Positions 27,154 to 37,540 of a stretch of 64,000 nucleotides of DNA are shown in pieces. Each line of letters starts with the position of its first letter. Within the stretch, counting starts at the first letter, position 1. The notes beneath the pieces were generated by a model. The model was not told the DNA's origin and ran no database searches. It worked only from the letters and a program-made list of their open reading frames with translations. Origin of the DNA: Hyunsoonleella pacifica (lineage in GTDB: Bacteria; Bacteroidota; Bacteroidia; Flavobacteriales; Flavobacteriaceae); assembly GCF_004310335.1 (NCBI RefSeq), contig NZ_SIRS01000004.1, forward strand, positions 289,856-353,855, in the 5' to 3' direction. The translations under genes and the position numbers were made by a program.

Positions 27154-28575
27154 TTACTTTTTCCAGATATTTTCCATTTTTTCCAGTGTTTTACCTTTAG
27201 TTTCTGGCACATATTTAAGAATAAACAAGGTTGCTAAAACACTCATAATTCCATATACCCAATATGCAAAACCATGATTAAACTGCTCGGTTAGATATGA
27301 ATTATCATTCATCATTGGGAAAGTTAAAGATACTAAATAGTTAGAAATCCACTGAGCTGCAACAGCGATTGCCAAAGCTTTTCCTCTAATTTTATTAGGA
27401 AAAATTTCCGAAAGCAATACCCAAGTTACAGGCCCCCAACTCATTGCAAAACTTGCAACATATAACATCATAGCAAATAATGCAGCGTACCCAGACCCTT
27501 CGGCATAAAACACAAACCCTAAAGAGAACATAGCAACTGCCATTCCTATAGCTCCAATAATCATTAGCGGTTTTCTACCATATTTATCTACAGTTCTGAT
27601 AGCTATAATAGTAAACAAGAAATTTACAATACCTACTATAATAGTCATCAATAAAGCACTATCTGTTCCTGAAGAAATAGTTTTAAAAATTTCAGGAGCA
27701 TAGTACAATACTACATTTATACCAACGAATTGCTGAAATACTGATAATAGAATTCCTATAATGATAACCAACCACCCAAAAGACAACAAACTTCCAGAAG
27801 TAGTTTTTTCATTCATGGATGCTTCAATCTCACTTAATATTTCATTTGCTCGTTCTTTGCCATTAACTTTTTCTAGAACATCTAAAGCCTCTTCTGATTT
27901 GTTTTTCATCATTAAAGAACGAGGTGTATCAGGAACTAAAAACAATAACAAAAGAAATAATCCTGCTGGCACAATCTCTGATGCAAACATCCATCTCCAT
28001 CCTATAGCATTTAGCCATTCATCAGAACCACCACTTCTAGAAATAAAATAGTTTACAAAATACACTACCATAAACCCTCCAACAATAGCTAACTGGTTAA
28101 AAGACACCAGTTTCCCTCTTTTATTTGCAGGAGCAATTTCAGCAATGTATAGCGGAGACAACATTGACGCCAATCCTACACCTATACCACCAATAATTCT
28201 ATACACAATGAATACCGTAGAAAGCGTATGATCTCCTTCTCCAATAGATGTAATTAACATCTCTGGCATAGCAGAACCTAGCGCAGATATTAAAAATAAA
28301 ATAGCAGCTAAAATCAAACCTTTTTTCCTACCTAATTTCTTACTAACTACACCTCCAAAAATTCCACCAATAACACAACCTATCAATGCACTAGAAACTA
28401 TAAATCCTTTAAAAGCACTAGCAGCAGTTTCTGATAATTGTTTTGGAATTACAAAAAACTCATCTAAAGAACCAACGGTTCCTGAGATAACTCCTGTATC
28501 ATATCCAAATAATAGCCCACCTAGTGTGGCAACTAAAGTTAATTTTAATAGATATTTTGAATGTGATGCTTCCAT
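27154..28575 (-). CDS. MFS sugar:H+ symporter, probably for xylose
   Basis: 473 residues with 12 hydrophobic segments. Sugar porter signatures are present: LGGLLFGYDTGVISGT at the N-terminus, RKKG between TM2 and TM3, PDTPR in the central loop, QQFVGINVVLYYAP in TM7 and PETKG at the end. Similar to XylE-type transporters. It is the third gene after xylB and xylA, which supports xylose as substrate. A separate TAnnTTTG motif lies 24 bp upstream. Confidence 0.9.
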   Translation of the reverse strand: MEASHSKYLLKLTLVATLGGLLFGYDTGVISGTVGSLDEFFVIPKQLSETAASAFKGFIVSSALIGCVIGGIFGGVVSKKLGRKKGLILAAILFLISALGSAMPEMLITSIGEGDHTLSTVFIVYRIIGGIGVGLASMLSPLYIAEIAPANKRGKLVSFNQLAIVGGFMVVYFVNYFISRSGGSDEWLNAIGWRWMFASEIVPAGLFLLLLFLVPDTPRSLMMKNKSEEALDVLEKVNGKERANEILSEIEASMNEKTTSGSLLSFGWLVIIIGILLSVFQQFVGINVVLYYAPEIFKTISSGTDSALLMTIIVGIVNFLFTIIAIRTVDKYGRKPLMIIGAIGMAVAMFSLGFVFYAEGSGYAALFAMMLYVASFAMSWGPVTWVLLSEIFPNKIRGKALAIAVAAQWISNYLVSLTFPMMNDNSYLTEQFNHGFAYWVYGIMSVLATLFILKYVPETKGKTLEKMENIWKK

Positions 28576-28598
28576 AAAGTAAATGTGTTAGTTGGTTT

Positions 28599-28606
28599 CA
28601 AATGTA
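28599..28606 (-). promoter_or_regulatory. Possible promoter -7 element for the sugar porter
   Basis: The minus strand reads TACATTTG, a full match to TAnnTTTG, 23 nt before the ATG. No TTG at the right distance upstream, so this is a weak call. Confidence 0.35.
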
Positions 28607-28625
28607 AAGAATATTAATTTATAGC

Positions 28626-29951
28626 CTAAATATACTGGTTAATTATATTTTCAAACAGCTCTTGCTTACCACTTTTTAATGATAGTTCCCCATTTTCTTG
28701 TGCTATTTTGTATAGATCATTAAAATCTAGTGTTCCATTTTCAAAGGCCTTACCGTTTCCTGAGTCAAAAGACGCATAACGCTGCTCTCTTAACTTATCA
28801 TAAGCTGAAGATGATATAATCTTATCAGCAGTAATTAAAGCTCTAGCAAAGGTATCTGCACCACCAATATGCGCTAAAAATACATCTTCTAAATCTGTTG
28901 AGTTTCTTCTAATTTTAGCGTCAAAATTAACACCTCCACCTTGTAAGCCTCCTGCTTTCAAGAATACCAACATCGCTTCTGTAGTTTCTTGAATATTGTT
29001 TGGGAACTGATCCGTATCCCAACCGTTTTGGTAATCACCACGGTTAGCATCAATACTTCCTAACATACCTGCAGCAGCAGAAACCTCTAATTCATGTTGA
29101 AACGTGTGTTGCGCTAAAGTAGCATGGTTTACCTCTATATTCATTTTAAAATCTTTATCCAAACCATATTTTTGAAGAAAACCTATAGCTGTAGCCGCAT
29201 CAAAATCGTACTGATGTTTCATAGGCTCCATAGGCTTAGGCTCAATAAAGAAAGTTCCTTTAAACCCTTGAGATCTAGCATAATCTCTAGCCATTGTTAA
29301 CAATTGTGCCATATGATCCAATTCTCTCCCCATATCTGTGTTTAGCAAAGACATGTAACCTTCTCTACCACCCCAGAACACATAATTTTCTCCATCTAAT
29401 TTTATAGTAGCATCTAAGGCTAACTTTATCTGTGCTCCAGCTCTAGCAACTACATCAAACTCTGGGTTAGTAGCTGCACCATTCATATATCTTGGATTAG
29501 AAAAACAATTCGCTGTCCCCCAAAGTAATTTAATTCCAGAGGCATCTTTTTTAGTTTTCAAATAATCTGTAATATCCGCTAAACGTTTTTCAGATTCTGC
29601 TAGTGTTGCACCTTCAGCCACAAGATCATAATCGTGAAAACAGAAATAATCAAATCCCATTTTACTAATAAATTCAAAAGCTGCATCAGCCTTATCTTTC
29701 GCTGCTTGTATAGGATCGTTAGATTGATCCCATTCAAAATTTTGAGTACCAGGCCCAAATGGATCTGCTCCTTGCCCGCAGAATGTATGCCAATACGCTA
29801 CAGCAAACTTAAAATGCTCACGCATTGTTTTTCCTGCTACTACCTGCTCTGGATTGTAGTATTTAAATGCTAAAGGATTATCAGATTCTTTTCCCTCGAA
29901 TTTAATTTCGCCGATACCTTTAAAATATTCTTTTTCTCCTAAAATTGCCAT
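28626..29951 (-). CDS. xylA: Xylose isomerase
   Basis: Converts D-xylose to D-xylulose. 441 residues, class II length. Visible signatures: FCFHDYD with the catalytic His-Asp pair near residue 103, FIEPKPMEP with metal ligands near 234, [15 protein letters not shown] near 270 and DANRGD near 305. Lies between xylB and the porter on the same strand. Confidence 0.97.
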
Positions 29952-30097
29952 TTTCTATTTATTTATAATGTTATCTATTCTATTTATCGTATTGTTTTTT
30001 CAACCAATGAAACATTTGTATTAGTATAGGCTTGAGGTAAATATAGTATGATTAAACCATTACCTATTAAATCACTCAAGAGAAACCTTACCTAATA

Positions 30098-31579
30098 TTA
30101 TTTATCTAAGATTATATCTAATTGCTTCTTCCAGTTATTATAAGCCTGTTCATAAGGTGCTTTATTCCCCAATGGCTTATAAGTCATTACATGATCATTT
30201 GCCGTAATATTATCGCCAAACTTTTTAAAATCTCCATCAGTCAAACCAGCTGCTCTTGCTGCTCCAACAGCACCGGTAGTATTGTAAATTTCTATATCGT
30301 AACCTATTAAAGTAGCTACAGTATTTGAGAATATCTCAGAACGAAACAAATTATCATTCCCGGCTCTAATTACTTTTATTTCAGCATTATCACGCTTCAA
30401 AATATCCATACCATAAACAAAGGAAAACGCAATACCTTCTAACGCTGCACGACATAAATGTCCTTCGCTATGCGTATTTAAATTTAAATTCAAAATATGT
30501 GTACCAACTATCTTATTATTAAACATACGCTCTGCACCGTTGCCAAAAGGAATAACGCAAACACCTTCCGACCCTATAGAAACAGCCTCAGCTTTTGCAT
30601 TCATATTTTCATAAGAATTTGAAGCCAAGTTATCCTTTAACCACCTGTACTGAATTCCAGCACCATTTATACACAACAGCTTCCCTAAAGTTGGGTTAGT
30701 ATTAGTGTAGTTTACATGTGCAAAGTGATTAATTCTAGATGGCTCTTCAGACTTCAAAATATCAGTTACAGCATATACTACTCCAGATGTTCCACCTGTT
30801 GCTGCCACCTCACCATGATTAAATACATTTAATGACAACGCATTGTTCGGCTGGTCTCCAGCCCTATATGTAATTGGTATACCTTCAGGCAAACCTGTAG
30901 CTTCAGCACCAGCAAAATTAACTTTGCATTGCAGAGTAAAATTCGCTACTATATCTGGCGTTAAATCTATATTTATATTGTAGTGTTTCAACAACCAATC
31001 TGCCACTGTATCTGCCTCATAATCCCAGAGCATACCTTCAGATAAACCATTTTTTGTGGTATTGATTTCTCCAGTTAATTTCATAGCAATAAAATCACCA
31101 GGCAACATGTATTTATGTATTCTATCATAAATATCAGGTTCGTTATCCCTTACCCACTTTAATTTAGAAGCTGTAAAATTCCCGGGAGAATTAAGTAACT
31201 TCTGCATACAAGTATCTTTACCTAAGTCTTCAAACGCAGTATTACCAATATCTACAGCACGACTATCACACCATATAATAGAGTTTCGTAAAGGGTTTCC
31301 TATTTTATCAACTACAACCAAACCATGCATTTGATACGAAATACCAATACCCGTAATTTTTGAAGCATCAATATTCCCTTCTTTTATAGCGCGTTTAGTA
31401 GCCACACACACATAATCCCACCACATATTTGGATCTTGCTCGGCCCAATGTTGTTGGGGTGCTACAATTTCCATTTCATTAGCTGGCTCATTAAGAGTAA
31501 TTATATTTGCACCTGTTTCAGCATTAACAATAGCCACTTTTACCGAAGAACTCCCTAAATCATATCCAATATAATACAC
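30098..31579 (-). CDS. xylB: Xylulokinase
   Basis: FGGY-family kinase that phosphorylates D-xylulose. N-terminal DLGSSSVKVAIV phosphate-binding motif, a MHG substrate motif near residue 80, and the C-terminal GAVGAARAAGL segment. 493 residues. First gene of the xylose unit, divergent from the arsenosugar cluster. The 203-bp upstream gap carries a perfect TACACT/AGTGTA inverted repeat. The 146-bp gap to xylA has no clear promoter. Confidence 0.95.
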   Translation of the reverse strand: MYYIGYDLGSSSVKVAIVNAETGANIITLNEPANEMEIVAPQQHWAEQDPNMWWDYVCVATKRAIKEGNIDASKITGIGISYQMHGLVVVDKIGNPLRNSIIWCDSRAVDIGNTAFEDLGKDTCMQKLLNSPGNFTASKLKWVRDNEPDIYDRIHKYMLPGDFIAMKLTGEINTTKNGLSEGMLWDYEADTVADWLLKHYNINIDLTPDIVANFTLQCKVNFAGAEATGLPEGIPITYRAGDQPNNALSLNVFNHGEVAATGGTSGVVYAVTDILKSEEPSRINHFAHVNYTNTNPTLGKLLCINGAGIQYRWLKDNLASNSYENMNAKAEAVSIGSEGVCVIPFGNGAERMFNNKIVGTHILNLNLNTHSEGHLCRAALEGIAFSFVYGMDILKRDNAEIKVIRAGNDNLFRSEIFSNTVATLIGYDIEIYNTTGAVGAARAAGLTDGDFKKFGDNITANDHVMTYKPLGNKAPYEQAYNNWKKQLDIILDK

Positions 31580-31782: not shown

Positions 31783-32118
31783 ATGCAAAAAACATATTAC
31801 GACCCCGCAGACTTAAGAAAATTTGGGAAAATAACAGAATGGAGCGAAGATTTAGGGAATAAATTTTTCGAATATTATGGTAAAGTTTTTGAAGAAGGAG
31901 CCTTAACCGCACGAGAAAAATCCTTAATTGCTCTGGCTGTTGCTCACACAGAGCAATGCCCATACTGTATAGATGCTTATACCAAAGATGGGCTTCAGCG
32001 CGGAGTAACTAAAGAGGAAATGATGGAAGCGATACATGTAGGTGCTGCCATAAAAAGTGGCGCAACCTTAGTACATGGTGTACAAATGATGAATAAAGTA
32101 AATAAATTAGATGGGTAA
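31783..32118 (+). CDS. Arsenosugar-associated peroxidase-like protein (CMD/AhpD fold)
   Basis: 111 residues, carboxymuconolactone decarboxylase/AhpD-like. The redox motif EQCPYC is at residues 57-62, followed by the helical EEMMEAIHVGAAIKSGATLVHG. Annotated relatives next to arsS are called arsenosugar biosynthesis-associated peroxidase-like proteins; their role is unproven, perhaps thiol-peroxide chemistry or keeping arsenic thiols reduced (inference). First gene of the cluster; 156 bp separate it from arsS and are filled by a REP-like element. Confidence 0.85.
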   Translation: MQKTYYDPADLRKFGKITEWSEDLGNKFFEYYGKVFEEGALTAREKSLIALAVAHTEQCPYCIDAYTKDGLQRGVTKEEMMEAIHVGAAIKSGATLVHGVQMMNKVNKLDG

Positions 32119-32121
32119 AAA

Positions 32122-32235
32122 CCTCTTGGGTATTATCCACAAGGGGGCGGATCTGCCTGCAAACAGGCTTTCTGTTAATAGTTTTGGGTTCTGGCAATGG
32201 CGGGACCAAAAGCAGCCACTTCAATTCCTAACGCA
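32122..32235 (-). repeat. REP-like dispersed element, copy C
   Basis: Read on the minus strand it starts GCGTTAGGAATTGAAGTGG, continues with GCTTTTGG...CCAAAACT stem arms and GAAAGCC, and has an extra GCCTG/CAGGC hairpin near 32155-32169. The order of motifs matches the copies at 43359-43460 and 53265-53351, but it is the most divergent of the three. Confidence 0.65.
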
Positions 32236-32274
32236 AAATAGAACAACAAAGATTAATAGCTTTTTAGAAAGAAT

Positions 32275-33339
32275 ATGACAAAGATAAAGACACAATCGCT
32301 ACATAAACGAGAAAGTGCGTTAGCTAAAAGCAAAAAGCAATTAGAAATTCTATCTAATGGTATCTTTCAAAATGGAGAATTACCAACGTTTGCAAAAAAA
32401 ATAGCAGAAACCAATCAATTTCCACTTAAAGCAAAAAAACTAGAAATCCTCCAAATCAACGTTGGTTACATGTGTAATCAAGTTTGCGAACATTGTCATG
32501 TAGACGCTGGCCCAGATCGAAAAGAAATAATGACTAGAGAAACTATGCAACAATGCTTAGAAGTCATTAAAAATACTGGCGCTCATACCTTAGACTTAAC
32601 GGGAGGAGCCCCTGAGATGAACCCAAATTTCAGATGGTTTGTAGAAGAAGCCTCAAAAGCAGGAATAAAAGATTTCATTGTGCGTTCTAACCTTACAATT
32701 ATTCGTGCCAACAAAAAATATTACGATTTACCAGAGTTCTTTAAAAAACACAATGTACATGTGGTAAGTTCTATGCCACACTGGACACGTGGAAAAACCG
32801 ACAAACAACGTGGAGACGGTGTTTTTGACGCATCCATTGAAGCATTAAAAATGCTAAATGCAATTGGTTATGGTATGCCAGAAAGCAGTTTACGTCTAGA
32901 TCTTGTTTATAATCCATCTGGAGCATTTTTACCTGGAGACCAAATGGCTATGGAAAAAGATTTCAAAAAAGCACTTATGGAAGATTTTAATATTCAATTT
33001 CATAATTTATTTGCTATTACTAATTTACCTATTTCAAGATTTTTAGATTACCTCATAGCTTCAGAAAATTACGAAGATTATATGTATCAATTAGTAGAAG
33101 CCTACAATCCCTCAGCAGTTGTAAATGTTATGTGTACAAATACCCTCTCAGTAAGTTGGGATGGTTATTTGTATGATTGCGATTTTAATCAAATGCTAGA
33201 GCTACCTGTAAATAGTAAAGTAAAACATATTTCAGATTATAATGAAGCGCTTCTAGAAGGCAGAAATATTGTAATTTCACAACATTGCTATGGTTGTACC
33301 GCAGGAGCAGGAAGTAGCTGTCAAGGTTCTGTAGCTTAA
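32275..33339 (+). CDS. arsS: Arsenosugar biosynthesis radical SAM protein ArsS
   Basis: 354 residues. Radical SAM cluster ligands are Cys67, Cys71 and Cys74 in CNQVCEHCHV; a DLTGGAPEMN motif follows. The C-terminus is Cys-rich (CDFNQM, then HCYGCTAGAGSSC), the hallmark of the family once called rSAM/selenodomain proteins. ArsS is known to join the 5'-deoxyadenosyl group of SAM to dimethylarsenic, giving an arsenic-adenosine precursor of arsenosugars. Here arsM, two associated transferases and a purine nucleoside phosphorylase lie in the same run of genes, supporting the call. Confidence 0.92.
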   Translation: MTKIKTQSLHKRESALAKSKKQLEILSNGIFQNGELPTFAKKIAETNQFPLKAKKLEILQINVGYMCNQVCEHCHVDAGPDRKEIMTRETMQQCLEVIKNTGAHTLDLTGGAPEMNPNFRWFVEEASKAGIKDFIVRSNLTIIRANKKYYDLPEFFKKHNVHVVSSMPHWTRGKTDKQRGDGVFDASIEALKMLNAIGYGMPESSLRLDLVYNPSGAFLPGDQMAMEKDFKKALMEDFNIQFHNLFAITNLPISRFLDYLIASENYEDYMYQLVEAYNPSAVVNVMCTNTLSVSWDGYLYDCDFNQMLELPVNSKVKHISDYNEALLEGRNIVISQHCYGCTAGAGSSCQGSVA

Positions 33340-33365
33340 AAAGCCCTTTAATTTTCTACCAAAAT

Positions 33366-33995
33366 ATGTCGAAAGAACTCATAATAGTCTTTGTTAAAAA
33401 CATAAAACTTGGCACTGTAAAAACCAGACTTGCCAAAACAATCGGTAATCATGCTGCATTTGAAGTTTACAAAGAATTAGTTGATATAACCGAAAAAGCA
33501 ACTTCAGATATTGAAGTAAACAAACGTATTTATTTTTCAGATGTTATCATTGATAGTAAGTGGAAAAGCTTTGACAAGTTTGTCCAGGAAGGAGAAGATT
33601 TGGGTATTAGAATGAAAAATGCTTTTACCAAAGGCTTTGAAGATGGTTATGAACGGATCGTTTTAATAGGGTCTGATCTTCCAGATATAAATGCAACACA
33701 TATTAAAAATGGCTTAAAGGCTCTAAATGATAGTGATGTTGTTTTTGGTCCTGCAGTTGATGGTGGCTATTATCTTATTGGGCTTTCAAAATTACATAAT
33801 TGTGTTTTTGATGATAAACCTTGGAGTCAATCTAACTTATTAGAGGATACTATTAAAGAATTACAATCCAAAAGCATCAATTACGATATATTAGAGACTT
33901 TAAACGATATTGATACTTTTGAAGATTTAGTTGCTTCAGAGTTTTACAAAACTAATCTTGAATTACAAGAAAAAATAAAACAGTTAAATAACTAA
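33366..33995 (+). CDS. TIGR04282-type arsenosugar biosynthesis glycosyltransferase
   Basis: 209 residues with a CofC/GT-A-like nucleotidyl or glycosyl transferase fold: FVKNIKLGTVKTRLAK at the N-terminus, GSDLPDIN with a metal-type Asp near residue 98 and DGGYYLIGL near 124. The family was named transferase 1 of the rSAM/selenodomain systems. A plausible role is to build or transfer the sugar aglycone part of arsenosugars (inference). It starts 26 nt after arsS. Confidence 0.88.
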   Translation: MSKELIIVFVKNIKLGTVKTRLAKTIGNHAAFEVYKELVDITEKATSDIEVNKRIYFSDVIIDSKWKSFDKFVQEGEDLGIRMKNAFTKGFEDGYERIVLIGSDLPDINATHIKNGLKALNDSDVVFGPAVDGGYYLIGLSKLHNCVFDDKPWSQSNLLEDTIKELQSKSINYDILETLNDIDTFEDLVASEFYKTNLELQEKIKQLNN

Positions 33996-34051
33996 ATAAG
34001 GGAACTAAGTGATGACTCAGGTTCTTATTTTTTAGTTTAAAAAATCAAATC

Positions 34052-34864
34052 ATGCTAAAATTTATAACAGAAACCGTTGATTTCCTTAAAGAAAAGGGAT
34101 TTGAAAATCCCGAAGTTGGCATCATCTTAGGTACAGGTTTAGGCCAACTTATTAATGAAGTTGATATTATAAAGGAGGTAAGCTATAATCATATCCCTAA
34201 CTTTCCAACAGCCACTGTCGAATTTCATAAAGGAAAACTCATTTTTGGGGAACTTGCAGGTAAAAAAGTTGTTGTTATGCAAGGGCGCTTTCACTTATAC
34301 GAAGGTTATACGTTGCAAGACGTAACCTACCCAGTGCGTATCATGGAAAAATTAGGTATTCACACCTTGTTAGTTTCTAATGCTGCTGGAGCTATAAACC
34401 TCAATTTCAAAAAAGGAGAGCTAATGCTTATTGAAGATCATATTAATCTTCAAGGTAGTTCCCCTTTAGCTTTTAAAGGTGTGGAACTTCTAGGAGAACG
34501 ATTCACTGATATGAGTGCACCCTATAATGACACTATAAATTCTACTTTTAAAAGTATTGCAAAAACAAATAATATAACACTACATGAAGGCGTTTATGTA
34601 AGTGTTGTAGGACCTCAATTAGAAACTAGAGCAGAATACCGAATGCTTAAAATAATTGGAGCAGACGCTGTAGGTATGAGTACCGTTCCTGAAATTATTG
34701 TTGCTAACCATTTAAATTTAAAAGTGGCTGCAGTGTCAGTTTTAACAGATGAATGCGACCCAGATAACTTAGAACCTGTAAATATTGAAGAAATCATAGC
34801 TATGGCGGCAAAAGCTGAACCAGATATGGTCACTCTATTTAAAGAATTAATTAAAACACTATAA
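34052..34864 (+). CDS. Purine nucleoside phosphorylase, family 2
   Basis: 270 residues, trimeric PNP/MTAP-type: GTGLGQL near residue 27, the EFHKGKL and MQGRFHLYEGY phosphate/ribose segments, SNAAGAIN near 114 and VGPQLETRAEYRM near 185. It cleaves purine nucleosides with phosphate. In this context it may remove adenine from the ArsS product rather than act only in salvage (inference). 56 bp after the first transferase; a weak hairpin and T-rich run lie in that gap, so partial termination is possible. Confidence 0.92.
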   Translation: MLKFITETVDFLKEKGFENPEVGIILGTGLGQLINEVDIIKEVSYNHIPNFPTATVEFHKGKLIFGELAGKKVVVMQGRFHLYEGYTLQDVTYPVRIMEKLGIHTLLVSNAAGAINLNFKKGELMLIEDHINLQGSSPLAFKGVELLGERFTDMSAPYNDTINSTFKSIAKTNNITLHEGVYVSVVGPQLETRAEYRMLKIIGADAVGMSTVPEIIVANHLNLKVAAVSVLTDECDPDNLEPVNIEEIIAMAAKAEPDMVTLFKELIKTL

Positions 34865-34953
34865 TTAAGCAGTACACAAGTCATCAGTATGCAGCAAAGT
34901 CATAGCTGCTACTTAAACTGCGTACTTCTTACTGCAAACTGAACACTGAAGAA

Positions 34954-35925
34954 ATGAGCACATATTTAGACACCACCCACGATGTATATAAAGAAGCAGC
35001 CTTAACACCAGATGTTGGCTTATGCTGTACAACAAACCCCATTTGGGAACTACCTGGATTAAAAATCCCAAAGATTATGCAAGAAATGAACTATGGTTGT
35101 GGTTCTACTGTACACGCAAGGGATTTAACCAACAATCCTAAGATGCTTTATGTAGGTGTTGGAGGAGGTATGGAATTATTACAATTTTCCTATTTTAATA
35201 GACAAAAAGGAGGTGTAGTAGGTGTAGATGTAGTTGATGAAATGTTAGAAGCATCAAGAAAAAACTTTAAAGAAGCAGAAGCACAAAACGATTGGTTTAA
35301 AAGCGAATTTGTTGAACTTAAAAAAGGAGACGCTTTAAACTTACCTGTTGAAGATAACTGTATAGACGTAGCGGCACAAAATTGTTTATTCAACATATTT
35401 AAAGCTGATGATTTAAAGAAAGCTATTGCCGAAATGTATCGTGTATTAAAACCTCATGGACGGTTAGTTATGAGTGATCCTACTTGCGAGCAACCTATGA
35501 ATGATACTTTACGAAATGATGAACGTTTAAGAGCTTTATGTCTAAGTGGTAGTTTGCCTATAGCTGATTATGTAAAAGCATTAACTGATGCTGGTTTTGG
35601 AACCATAGAAATAAGAGCAAGAAAGCCATATCGCATTTTAGACCCTAAACACTACCCTACCGATGAGCTGATTTACATAGAGTCTATTGAAGTAGCAGCT
35701 ATAAAGGATCCTATGCCTGAAGATGGCCCATGTATTTTTACAGGAAAAGCAGCGATTTATTATGGCGAAGATGATTATTTTGATGATAAAAAAGGGCACG
35801 TTTTACTAAAAAACCAACCTTTAGCTATTTGTGACAAAACCGCTGGTGCCTTGGCTGATTTAAATCGGCATGATATTTTCATTAGTGAATCTACCTATCA
35901 CTATGATGGTGGTGGCTGTTGTTAA
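34954..35925 (+). CDS. arsM: Arsenosugar-type arsenite methyltransferase ArsM
   Basis: 323 residues, Rossmann SAM methyltransferase with LYVGVGGGMELLQF near residue 65. Candidate arsenic-binding cysteines are Cys24-Cys25 (GLCCTTNP), Cys49, Cys144 (AQNCLFNIF) and Cys196 (LCLSGSLP); the last two sit where known ArsM proteins keep essential Cys. The protein ends GGGCC, as many ArsM do. It methylates As(III) stepwise to dimethylarsenic, the substrate of ArsS. Next gene follows after 18 nt. Confidence 0.92.
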   Translation: MSTYLDTTHDVYKEAALTPDVGLCCTTNPIWELPGLKIPKIMQEMNYGCGSTVHARDLTNNPKMLYVGVGGGMELLQFSYFNRQKGGVVGVDVVDEMLEASRKNFKEAEAQNDWFKSEFVELKKGDALNLPVEDNCIDVAAQNCLFNIFKADDLKKAIAEMYRVLKPHGRLVMSDPTCEQPMNDTLRNDERLRALCLSGSLPIADYVKALTDAGFGTIEIRARKPYRILDPKHYPTDELIYIESIEVAAIKDPMPEDGPCIFTGKAAIYYGEDDYFDDKKGHVLLKNQPLAICDKTAGALADLNRHDIFISESTYHYDGGGCC

Positions 35926-35943
35926 TTTAAAACCCAAATTGCC

Positions 35944-36825
35944 GTGAAATCGTTTTATCTCTATATACTAATACCTCTAGCGCTTTTTTCTTGTAAAAGT
36001 GCTAAAAAGGTTATTAACGAAACCTCAATATCTAAACAAGAAAAAAAAGTCATTGATACTATTACAACCACAAAAGAGGTTATTAAAATGACCGATTCAT
36101 TGATGGTACCTCCTGATAAAAAAGATATTGAAATTATAGAGAAACCCATTATCAAGGAAATACCTCAAGCACCTCTTAAAGTAGTTTTTGGTCACGAAAC
36201 GTTTCAAACGTTGCTTAAAAAGCATGTATCAGACAGAGGCGATGTTAATTATAAAGGCTTAAAAACAGATTGGAAAACTCTTAGAAAATACATAGACCAA
36301 CTAGGTAAGAATTTACCAGACAGTAATTGGACTAAAAACGAGAAATTAGCATATTGGATTAACGCTTACAATGCTATGACTGTTGATTTAATTTTACGTC
36401 ATTACCCAATAAAAAGTATTAAGGACATTAAAAATCCATGGAAACAACGTTATTGGCAACTTGGGGAAAAATGGTATAATTTAGACGAAATAGAACATCA
36501 AATTTTACGTAAAATGGATGAACCACGTATCCATTTTGCTATTGTTTGTGCTTCTTATTCTTGTCCGAAATTACAAAATGAAGCGTTTACGCCTTCAAAT
36601 TTAGAACAACAACTAACTAGAGCTACCAAGGAGTTTTTAAATGATCCTGAAAGAAATTCTATTTCAAAAAACAATTTAGAACTTTCTAAAATATTTCAAT
36701 GGTTTGCTAAAGATTTTAAGCAAAACGGTTCTCTTATTGATTTTTTAAATGCATACACCGAAACAGAGATTTCTCAAAGTGCTAAAAAACAATTTAAAGA
36801 TTACAGCTGGGATTTAAATGAATAA
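35944..36825 (+). CDS. DUF547 lipoprotein
   Basis: 293 residues. The start is GTG at 35944, giving a lipoprotein signal with Cys17 in LALFSC. A charged linker to about residue 75 precedes a DUF547 domain (AYWINAYNAMTVDLILRHYP, HFAIVCASYSCPKL with the conserved Cys). DUF547 has a cysteine-protease-like fold but no settled function. It overlaps the next gene by 8 nt, so it is coupled to the arsenosugar transferase. A paralogue lies at 42395-43108. Confidence 0.88.
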   Translation: MKSFYLYILIPLALFSCKSAKKVINETSISKQEKKVIDTITTTKEVIKMTDSLMVPPDKKDIEIIEKPIIKEIPQAPLKVVFGHETFQTLLKKHVSDRGDVNYKGLKTDWKTLRKYIDQLGKNLPDSNWTKNEKLAYWINAYNAMTVDLILRHYPIKSIKDIKNPWKQRYWQLGEKWYNLDEIEHQILRKMDEPRIHFAIVCASYSCPKLQNEAFTPSNLEQQLTRATKEFLNDPERNSISKNNLELSKIFQWFAKDFKQNGSLIDFLNAYTETEISQSAKKQFKDYSWDLNE

Positions 36826-37540
36826 AATCTCAATTATAATACCAGTTTTTAATGAGGCAGAATACATTACAAACCTGCTTAATCATCTTATAAAAAACGC
36901 TTCAGAAACCCATATTAAAGAAATAATAGTAGTTGATGGAGGAAGTAGTGATGATACACAAAAGGTAGTTCTCAATACATTTCCAGTGTTTGAAAAACTC
37001 AAAACTAATATTCAATTAGTAATTTCTAAAAAAGGACGTGCTAAGCAAATGAATAAAGGTGCAAAAGAAGCTACAGGTGGTGTTCTTTATTTTTTACATG
37101 CAGACTCTTTTCCTCCTAAAAATTTTGACAAATATATTATTACTGAAGTAACAAAAGGTAACAATGCGGGGTGTTTTAGAATGCAATTTGATAGTAGCCA
37201 TTGGTGGTTAAAATTAGCAGGATGGTTAACTGCTTTACCTTTTAAAGCGAGTCGTGGCGGGGATCAAAGTCAATTTATTACAAAAAAGCTTTTTGATGAT
37301 ATAGGCGGTTATGATGAGCGTTTTGAAATTTATGAAGACAACGATTTAATTAAAAAACTATATGCTAGAAAAGAGTATGTAGTTATTCCTGAATGGTTAA
37401 CTACATCTGCTAGATGCTACCAAAAAAATGGCGTTTGGAAAACTCAATTTCACTTTTGGTGTATTCACTTAAAAAGTCGTCTAGGTGCCTCTCCCAGTGA
37501 GCTTAAATCCTACTATAAACAGAATTTAGTAAAAACTTAA
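36818..37540 (+). CDS. TIGR04283-type arsenosugar biosynthesis glycosyltransferase
   Basis: 240 residues, GT2 fold: IIIPVFNEAEYI at the N-terminus, VVDGGSSDDT with the first Asp pair near residue 38, FLHADSFPP as the DxD-like motif near 93 and GGYDERFEIYEDNDL near 165. Once called transferase 2 of the rSAM/selenodomain systems. Probably transfers the arsenoribosyl or a related sugar unit (inference). Last gene of the tight arsM-DUF547-GT run; it overlaps the convergent phosphoesterase by 4 nt. Confidence 0.9.
   Translation: MNKISIIIPVFNEAEYITNLLNHLIKNASETHIKEIIVVDGGSSDDTQKVVLNTFPVFEKLKTNIQLVISKKGRAKQMNKGAKEATGGVLYFLHADSFPPKNFDKYIITEVTKGNNAGCFRMQFDSSHWWLKLAGWLTALPFKASRGGDQSQFITKKLFDDIGGYDERFEIYEDNDLIKKLYARKEYVVIPEWLTTSARCYQKNGVWKTQFHFWCIHLKSRLGASPSELKSYYKQNLVKT

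Follow-up and report, generated by a model that had tools for sequence, protein, structure and literature searches.

In the formation of arsenosugars, which occur naturally as beta-ribosides, ArsM yields dimethylarsenic and the radical SAM enzyme ArsS couples dimethylarsenic to 5'-deoxyadenosine. The closest described gene set is that of NCBIfam, with five arsenosugar models (TIGR04167, NF038099, TIGR04169, TIGR04282, and TIGR04283). Here, we analyzed a window (the whole stretch, 64,000 nucleotides) from Hyunsoonleella pacifica (Flavobacteriaceae; assembly GCF_004310335.1, contig NZ_SIRS01000004.1, positions 289,856 to 353,855), in which all five models are matched within one cluster of seven genes that also includes a purine nucleoside phosphorylase (PNP), and we suggest that this PNP probably removes the adenine of the arsenic nucleoside. 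For the replacement of adenine by an aglycone, the accessible parts of the searched literature offered a single proposal, an algal nucleosidase. In that proposal, made for AsSugPhytol in Dunaliella, the accessible text of PMC10456119 also has adenine removed from the arsenic nucleoside before glycosidation, but by a nucleosidase giving a ribose derivative, together with a phytyl diphosphate, whereas the route proposed here uses phosphorolysis and a nucleoside diphosphate (NDP) sugar. Openly accessible literature pairing arsenosugars with PNP concerned, in its available portions, only arsenic genetics, toxicology, or arsenate reduction and included no pathway paper, and none was found linking arsenosugars with methylthioadenosine phosphorylase (MTAP), though a late pathway may have been published elsewhere.

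The cluster itself is already known and is not new, because NCBI models title five of its seven genes as arsenosugar genes: ArsS, an NF038099-type ArsM, and the TIGR04169, TIGR04282, and TIGR04283 proteins lie in this one locus, all scoring above their cut-offs (Table 1). It differs from the NCBIfam set in that the PNP is a member without an arsenosugar name, the models it matches carrying none, and in that the TIGR04282 protein, titled a glycosyltransferase there, is nucleotidyltransferase-like here. The gene arrangement is not due to chance and recurs across Flavobacteriaceae. In the route that we propose, the PNP would cleave the arsenic nucleoside with phosphate to adenine and 5-deoxy-5-dimethylarsinoyl-alpha-ribose 1-phosphate, the CofC-like TIGR04282 protein would convert this 5-dimethylarsinoyl-ribose 1-phosphate to an NDP-sugar, and the TIGR04283 enzyme, presumably inverting because it is of the GT2 type, would transfer the arsenoribose to glycerol or to the head group of a lipid to give a beta-riboside. 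Judged from sequence, adenine removal by the PNP is likely, the three steps taken together have about an even chance, and the reading as a whole, i.e., an arsenosugar operon whose PNP removes adenine, is somewhat favored. The gene evidence thereby names three enzymes, their order, and one testable intermediate for the replacement of adenine by an aglycone; if the proposal is true, the late pathway of a common organic form of arsenic would be closed, and the gene set is widespread, arsS being present in 215 of 299 sampled Flavobacteriaceae genomes.

Linkage between PNP and arsS was assessed in the best 80 of these 215 arsS genomes by score, the window genome included. All 80 had a PNP, which in 60 lay within 5 kb downstream of arsS on the same strand. 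In the remaining 20, inspected singly, it sat in an arsenosugar gene block, where it directly adjoined TIGR04282 in 18, mostly with ArsM, DUF547, or TIGR04283; the exceptions had one open reading frame (ORF) between PNP and TIGR04282 in one genome (G071) and four in another (G291; G and L numbers are our handles for genomes and loci). Among 80 named-genome loci fetched by arsS, 58 held a cluster-type PNP; in 15 of the other 22 the flanks are complete to 10 kb, which means that no such PNP lies close to arsS there, and a whole-genome search of 20 of the 80 named genomes (10 of the 22 included) recovered a PNP in 19.

Within Flavobacterium, where arsS was present in 10 of 140 genomes, a PNP of the window type occurred in all 10 arsS genomes, 0.3 to 8.3 kb from arsS, vs none of the 130 others (Fisher p = 1.7e-15, kinship being ignored), and 8 of the 10 also had an ordinary PNP elsewhere. 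The PNP tree divides these 10 genomes into two groups, so that perhaps just two independent events are represented. A PNP match was present in 92 of the 130 arsS-lacking genomes: 28 of these were typed residue by residue (L194-L222 minus L211), a further ten, namely four partial matches and the six full ones with the lowest scores, best match the ordinary type, with the His described below visible in nine, and the remaining PNPs were typed by score (>320 bits vs ≤305.8 for the cluster type in the genus). TIGR04282 occurred in the same 10 arsS genomes, in two of which (G703 and G713) it and TIGR04283 are located away from arsS, and in 4 of the 130 others. Because three of those four have a TIGR04282-DUF547-TIGR04283 block without PNP, the PNP of this genus tracks arsS and not the transferase block.

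In Pseudomonadota, which were covered through plasmids only, a different phosphorylase was found in the corresponding place. A tblastn search of ArsS against plasmids gave 52 records, 47 of them Burkholderia, which count as one locus (one was inspected). An annotated MTAP is grouped with TIGR04282 and TIGR04283 in the plasmid loci of Acinetobacter portensis and Burkholderia glumae, and an unannotated Cupriavidus plasmid has consecutive TIGR04283, TIGR04282, and MTAP genes (MTAP 276.2 bits, cut-off 274.85). MTAP thus holds the genomic post of PNP in three Pseudomonadota plasmid loci, which may share descent; its presence there fits phosphorolysis of a 5'-substituted adenosine, and, taken with the PNP loci, two phosphorylase subfamilies have therefore been recruited to arsS loci.

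The window PNP is a full-length match to the trimeric PNP family and exceeds the cut-offs of all three models (TIGR01697, 297.3 bits, cut-off 197.1; TIGR01700, 294.3 bits, cut-off 293.35; NF006054, Table 1), its closest solved sequence being PNP 4lna; it is not an MTAP by score (95.4 bits on TIGR01694, cut-off 274.85). In the alignment, it departs from classical PNPs in having Ile for the His that we take to bind the 5'-OH (human H257) and Asp for the Asn that presumably contacts the base. The His position is occupied by I, V, L, or M in sequences of the window PNP type and by His in the other two types. The MTAPs of three arsS loci carry Val, Val, and Ala, respectively, at the 5' site and Asp at the base site, so that the window PNP shares with MTAP an aliphatic 5' residue and a base-site Asp as well as its post in arsS loci. 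A careful tree of 73 PNPs, from which long-branch rows were excluded and near relatives thinned, united the PNPs linked to the cluster with their relatives lacking arsS in a single 54-row clade (support 99/97), apart from the PNPs of other families, and a quicker 105-row tree agreed (77-row clade, support 98); this cluster-type clade takes in Fulvivirga and three further loci (L359-L361).

As for the transferases, the TIGR04282 protein is CofC-like by sequence and by predicted fold, and the predicted fold is closest to nucleoside triphosphate (NTP)-using transferases of guanylyltransferase-like type. Compared with CofC/FbiD and the 3-phosphoglycerate guanylyltransferases, it nevertheless scores under the curated CofC cut-off (TIGR03552, 35.8 bits, cut-off 105). 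It looks like a CofC-type nucleotidyltransferase rather than a glycosyltransferase; on the fold evidence the latter role is less likely, and the gene evidence suggests that the NCBI name "glycosyltransferase" is misleading. The name "fbiD" given to TIGR04282 in the accessible part of PMC8801600 is consistent with a CofC relation. The initial annotation had supposed that either transferase could use ribose 1-phosphate directly, which this resemblance to NTP-using guanylyltransferases does not support and which is why an extra activation step enters the proposed route. In many relatives, TIGR04282 is directly preceded by a gene of ~160-190 amino acids (e.g., L182:4407-4901), rhodanese-like where scanned (L295), and this gene is missing from the window cluster.

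Several results weigh against adenine removal by the PNP. The linkage set was not random, and purine salvage alone could retain a PNP that is the only one of TIGR01697 type in its genome, as is the case in 78 of the 80 arsS genomes. One named genome (G830, of locus L313) had no PNP match in the whole-genome search. In none of 73 arsS genomes from other families did a PNP lie within 15 kb of that gene. In a draw from the phylum, 156 of 395 genomes had arsS, and among the 79 of these searched for PNP, hand-picked for spread, one that is 99% complete (G655) gave no PNP match at all. For the ArsS plasmid loci of Ca. Thiodictyon, Pseudanabaena, and Hymenobacter, neither annotation nor tblastn revealed a phosphorylase within 9 kb. 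PNPs of the type lacking the His occur across the phylum unlinked to arsS, arsS-unlinked PNPs of other families show the same Ile/Asp-type pocket pattern, and the window PNP retains the Glu typical of 6-oxopurine PNPs, which does not speak for adenine nucleosides; for these reasons the pocket, as aligned, permits the proposed arsenic nucleoside and gives no proof of the substrate. Among arsS-lacking Flavobacteriaceae (80 of 84 genomes searched), PNP was present in 49 (42 when only the 58 better genomes are counted) and lay within 1 kb of TIGR04283 in 12, and none of the 80 yielded an arsenosugar-type ArsM in a search in which no control matched. The initial annotation had staked its proposal on linkage of the PNP gene to arsS in other genomes, which held within Flavobacteriaceae, Flavobacterium included, and broke down in other families. 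Its interpretation is partly supported: the tie to arsS within the family and the MTAP substitution speak for it, the direct use of ribose 1-phosphate finds no support, and the linkage is not universal.

The PNP could instead be an ordinary purine salvage enzyme that lies incidentally in the operon and has no arsenosugar role. The PNP family is distributed phylum-wide, and PNPs of the same clade occur without nearby TIGR04282 or TIGR04283 in 7 inspected arsS-lacking genomes, in three cases with 76-81% identity to the window PNP. The window PNP does lie inside the cluster, as first described, but to call it built-in is too strong, since it is the genome's sole TIGR01697-type match (at E 1e-25). 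Salvage without an arsenosugar role is nonetheless unlikely in our view, as it accounts neither for the restriction of window-type PNPs to arsS genomes in Flavobacterium, most of which have a second PNP, nor for a phosphorylase of another subfamily in the same place in Pseudomonadota. The window PNP probably also serves ordinary purine salvage, and if adenine removal is its task in the cluster, the single PNP would double as the salvage enzyme in most of the family.

Blocks of TIGR04282-PNP-(DUF547)-TIGR04283 also occur without a genomic arsS (L167, L170, L173, L271-L273, L276-L278, and L282). They mostly retain the residues (up to 13) that are invariant in the compared arsS genomes, although L173 departs from this most clearly and the TIGR04283 proteins of L167 and L170 differ at four positions each, and they are scattered in the tree (7 changes, 2 of which are forced by strongly supported branches). 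This suggests arsenic-free use or recent loss, i.e., such a block either outlives its purpose or has another, arsenic-free one. A broader idea, which we regard as doubtful, is that PNP, TIGR04282, and TIGR04283 act together as a general module converting 5'-modified nucleosides, the products of radical SAM chemistry, into activated 5-modified ribose and then into beta-ribosides, with ArsS and ArsM feeding in arsenic in many genomes and some other, arsenic-free nucleoside entering where arsS is absent.

Alternatively, the PNP might clear 5'-deoxyadenosine or methylthioadenosine left by radical SAM turnover of ArsS, which would protect this enzyme and allow adenine to be recovered. An aliphatic residue at the 5' site would suit any 5'-deoxy nucleoside, the MTAP of the Pseudomonadota loci acts, by name, on such a nucleoside, and in a few Flavobacterium loci (L263 and L266) the PNP adjoins ArsS rather than TIGR04282. 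However, the constant neighbor of the PNP is TIGR04282, not ArsS, even in genomes with ArsS at a different location, and such salvage needs no nucleotidyltransferase, so that we consider clearance quite improbable. Finally, a contribution of the PNP to the supply of ArsM, with arsenolysis helping to reduce arsenate to arsenite, is very unlikely, since, although PNP reduces arsenate in vitro according to the review PMC12608789, the same text gives its occurrence in vivo as not known, and neither the TIGR04282 neighborhood nor the MTAP substitution would be explained.

The layout of the locus is given in Table 1. ORFs and NCBIfam and Pfam matches bear out the initial annotation of seven co-oriented genes of these families. 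The intergenic gaps, from ORF coordinates, are 156, 26, 56, 89, and 18 bases in order, followed by an 8-base overlap; because a terminator-like site lies inside the 156-base gap between the TIGR04169 and arsS genes, a single transcript across the seven genes is not established. The window ArsS is the one match above the TIGR04167 cut-off in the whole genome. The DUF547 protein had no match in the NCBIfam scan and is assigned by Pfam PF04784 only, with the structure of its core predicted at high confidence; Pfam also assigns CMD and DUF2064/CofC domains among the cluster proteins.

Table 1. Features of the arsenosugar locus, in window coordinates
Feature	Position	Strand	Match (bits; cut-off)
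Genes resembling, by eye, xylose transporter, xylose isomerase, and xylulokinase	27154..31579	-	
TIGR04169 AhpD-like, peroxidase-like protein, arsenosugar-associated	31783..32118	+	NCBIfam TIGR04169 (193.8; 120)
Terminator-like site	32155..32168		
ArsS, radical SAM, 5'-deoxyadenosyl to dimethylarsenic	32275..33339	+	TIGR04167 (443.7; 300)
TIGR04282 protein, proposed nucleotidyltransferase for NDP-(5-dimethylarsinoyl)ribose	33366..33995	+	TIGR04282 (189.1; 134)
PNP, proposed phosphorolysis of 5'-deoxy-5'-dimethylarsinoyl-adenosine	34052..34864	+	NF006054 (344.3; 218)
ArsM, arsenosugar-type arsenite methyltransferase	34954..35925	+	NF038099 (580.7; 400)
DUF547 protein	35944..36825	+	Pfam PF04784 (107.3)
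TIGR04283 GT2-family glycosyltransferase, proposed transfer of arsenoribose to aglycone	36818..37540	+	TIGR04283 (227.3; 182); PF00535

Several further genes were seen at or beside arsS loci. The xylose-type genes adjoin the window cluster, and on the Hymenobacter plasmid xylA and an FGGY kinase likewise lie beside arsS (L367:12636-15517); this adjacency is probably a coincidence. In Lacinutrix neustonica (L357), two neighboring ORFs each match ArsS, as in a broken or duplicated gene. A phosphate transporter gene is present in two arsS loci (L286 and L365), and arsS loci of both Bacteroidota and Pseudomonadota repeatedly contain a fatty acid hydroxylase/sterol desaturase gene (L284:14058-14939, L286:14130-15242, L365, and L366), the latter hinting at a lipid product. 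An extra block between ArsS and TIGR04282 was seen in L295 (11890-18734) and likewise in L292, L298, and L304, comprising a second, diverged TIGR04282-like gene, a TonB receptor, a SusD-like protein, an unassigned protein, and a metallophosphoesterase, and it may possibly serve arsenosugar uptake or export.
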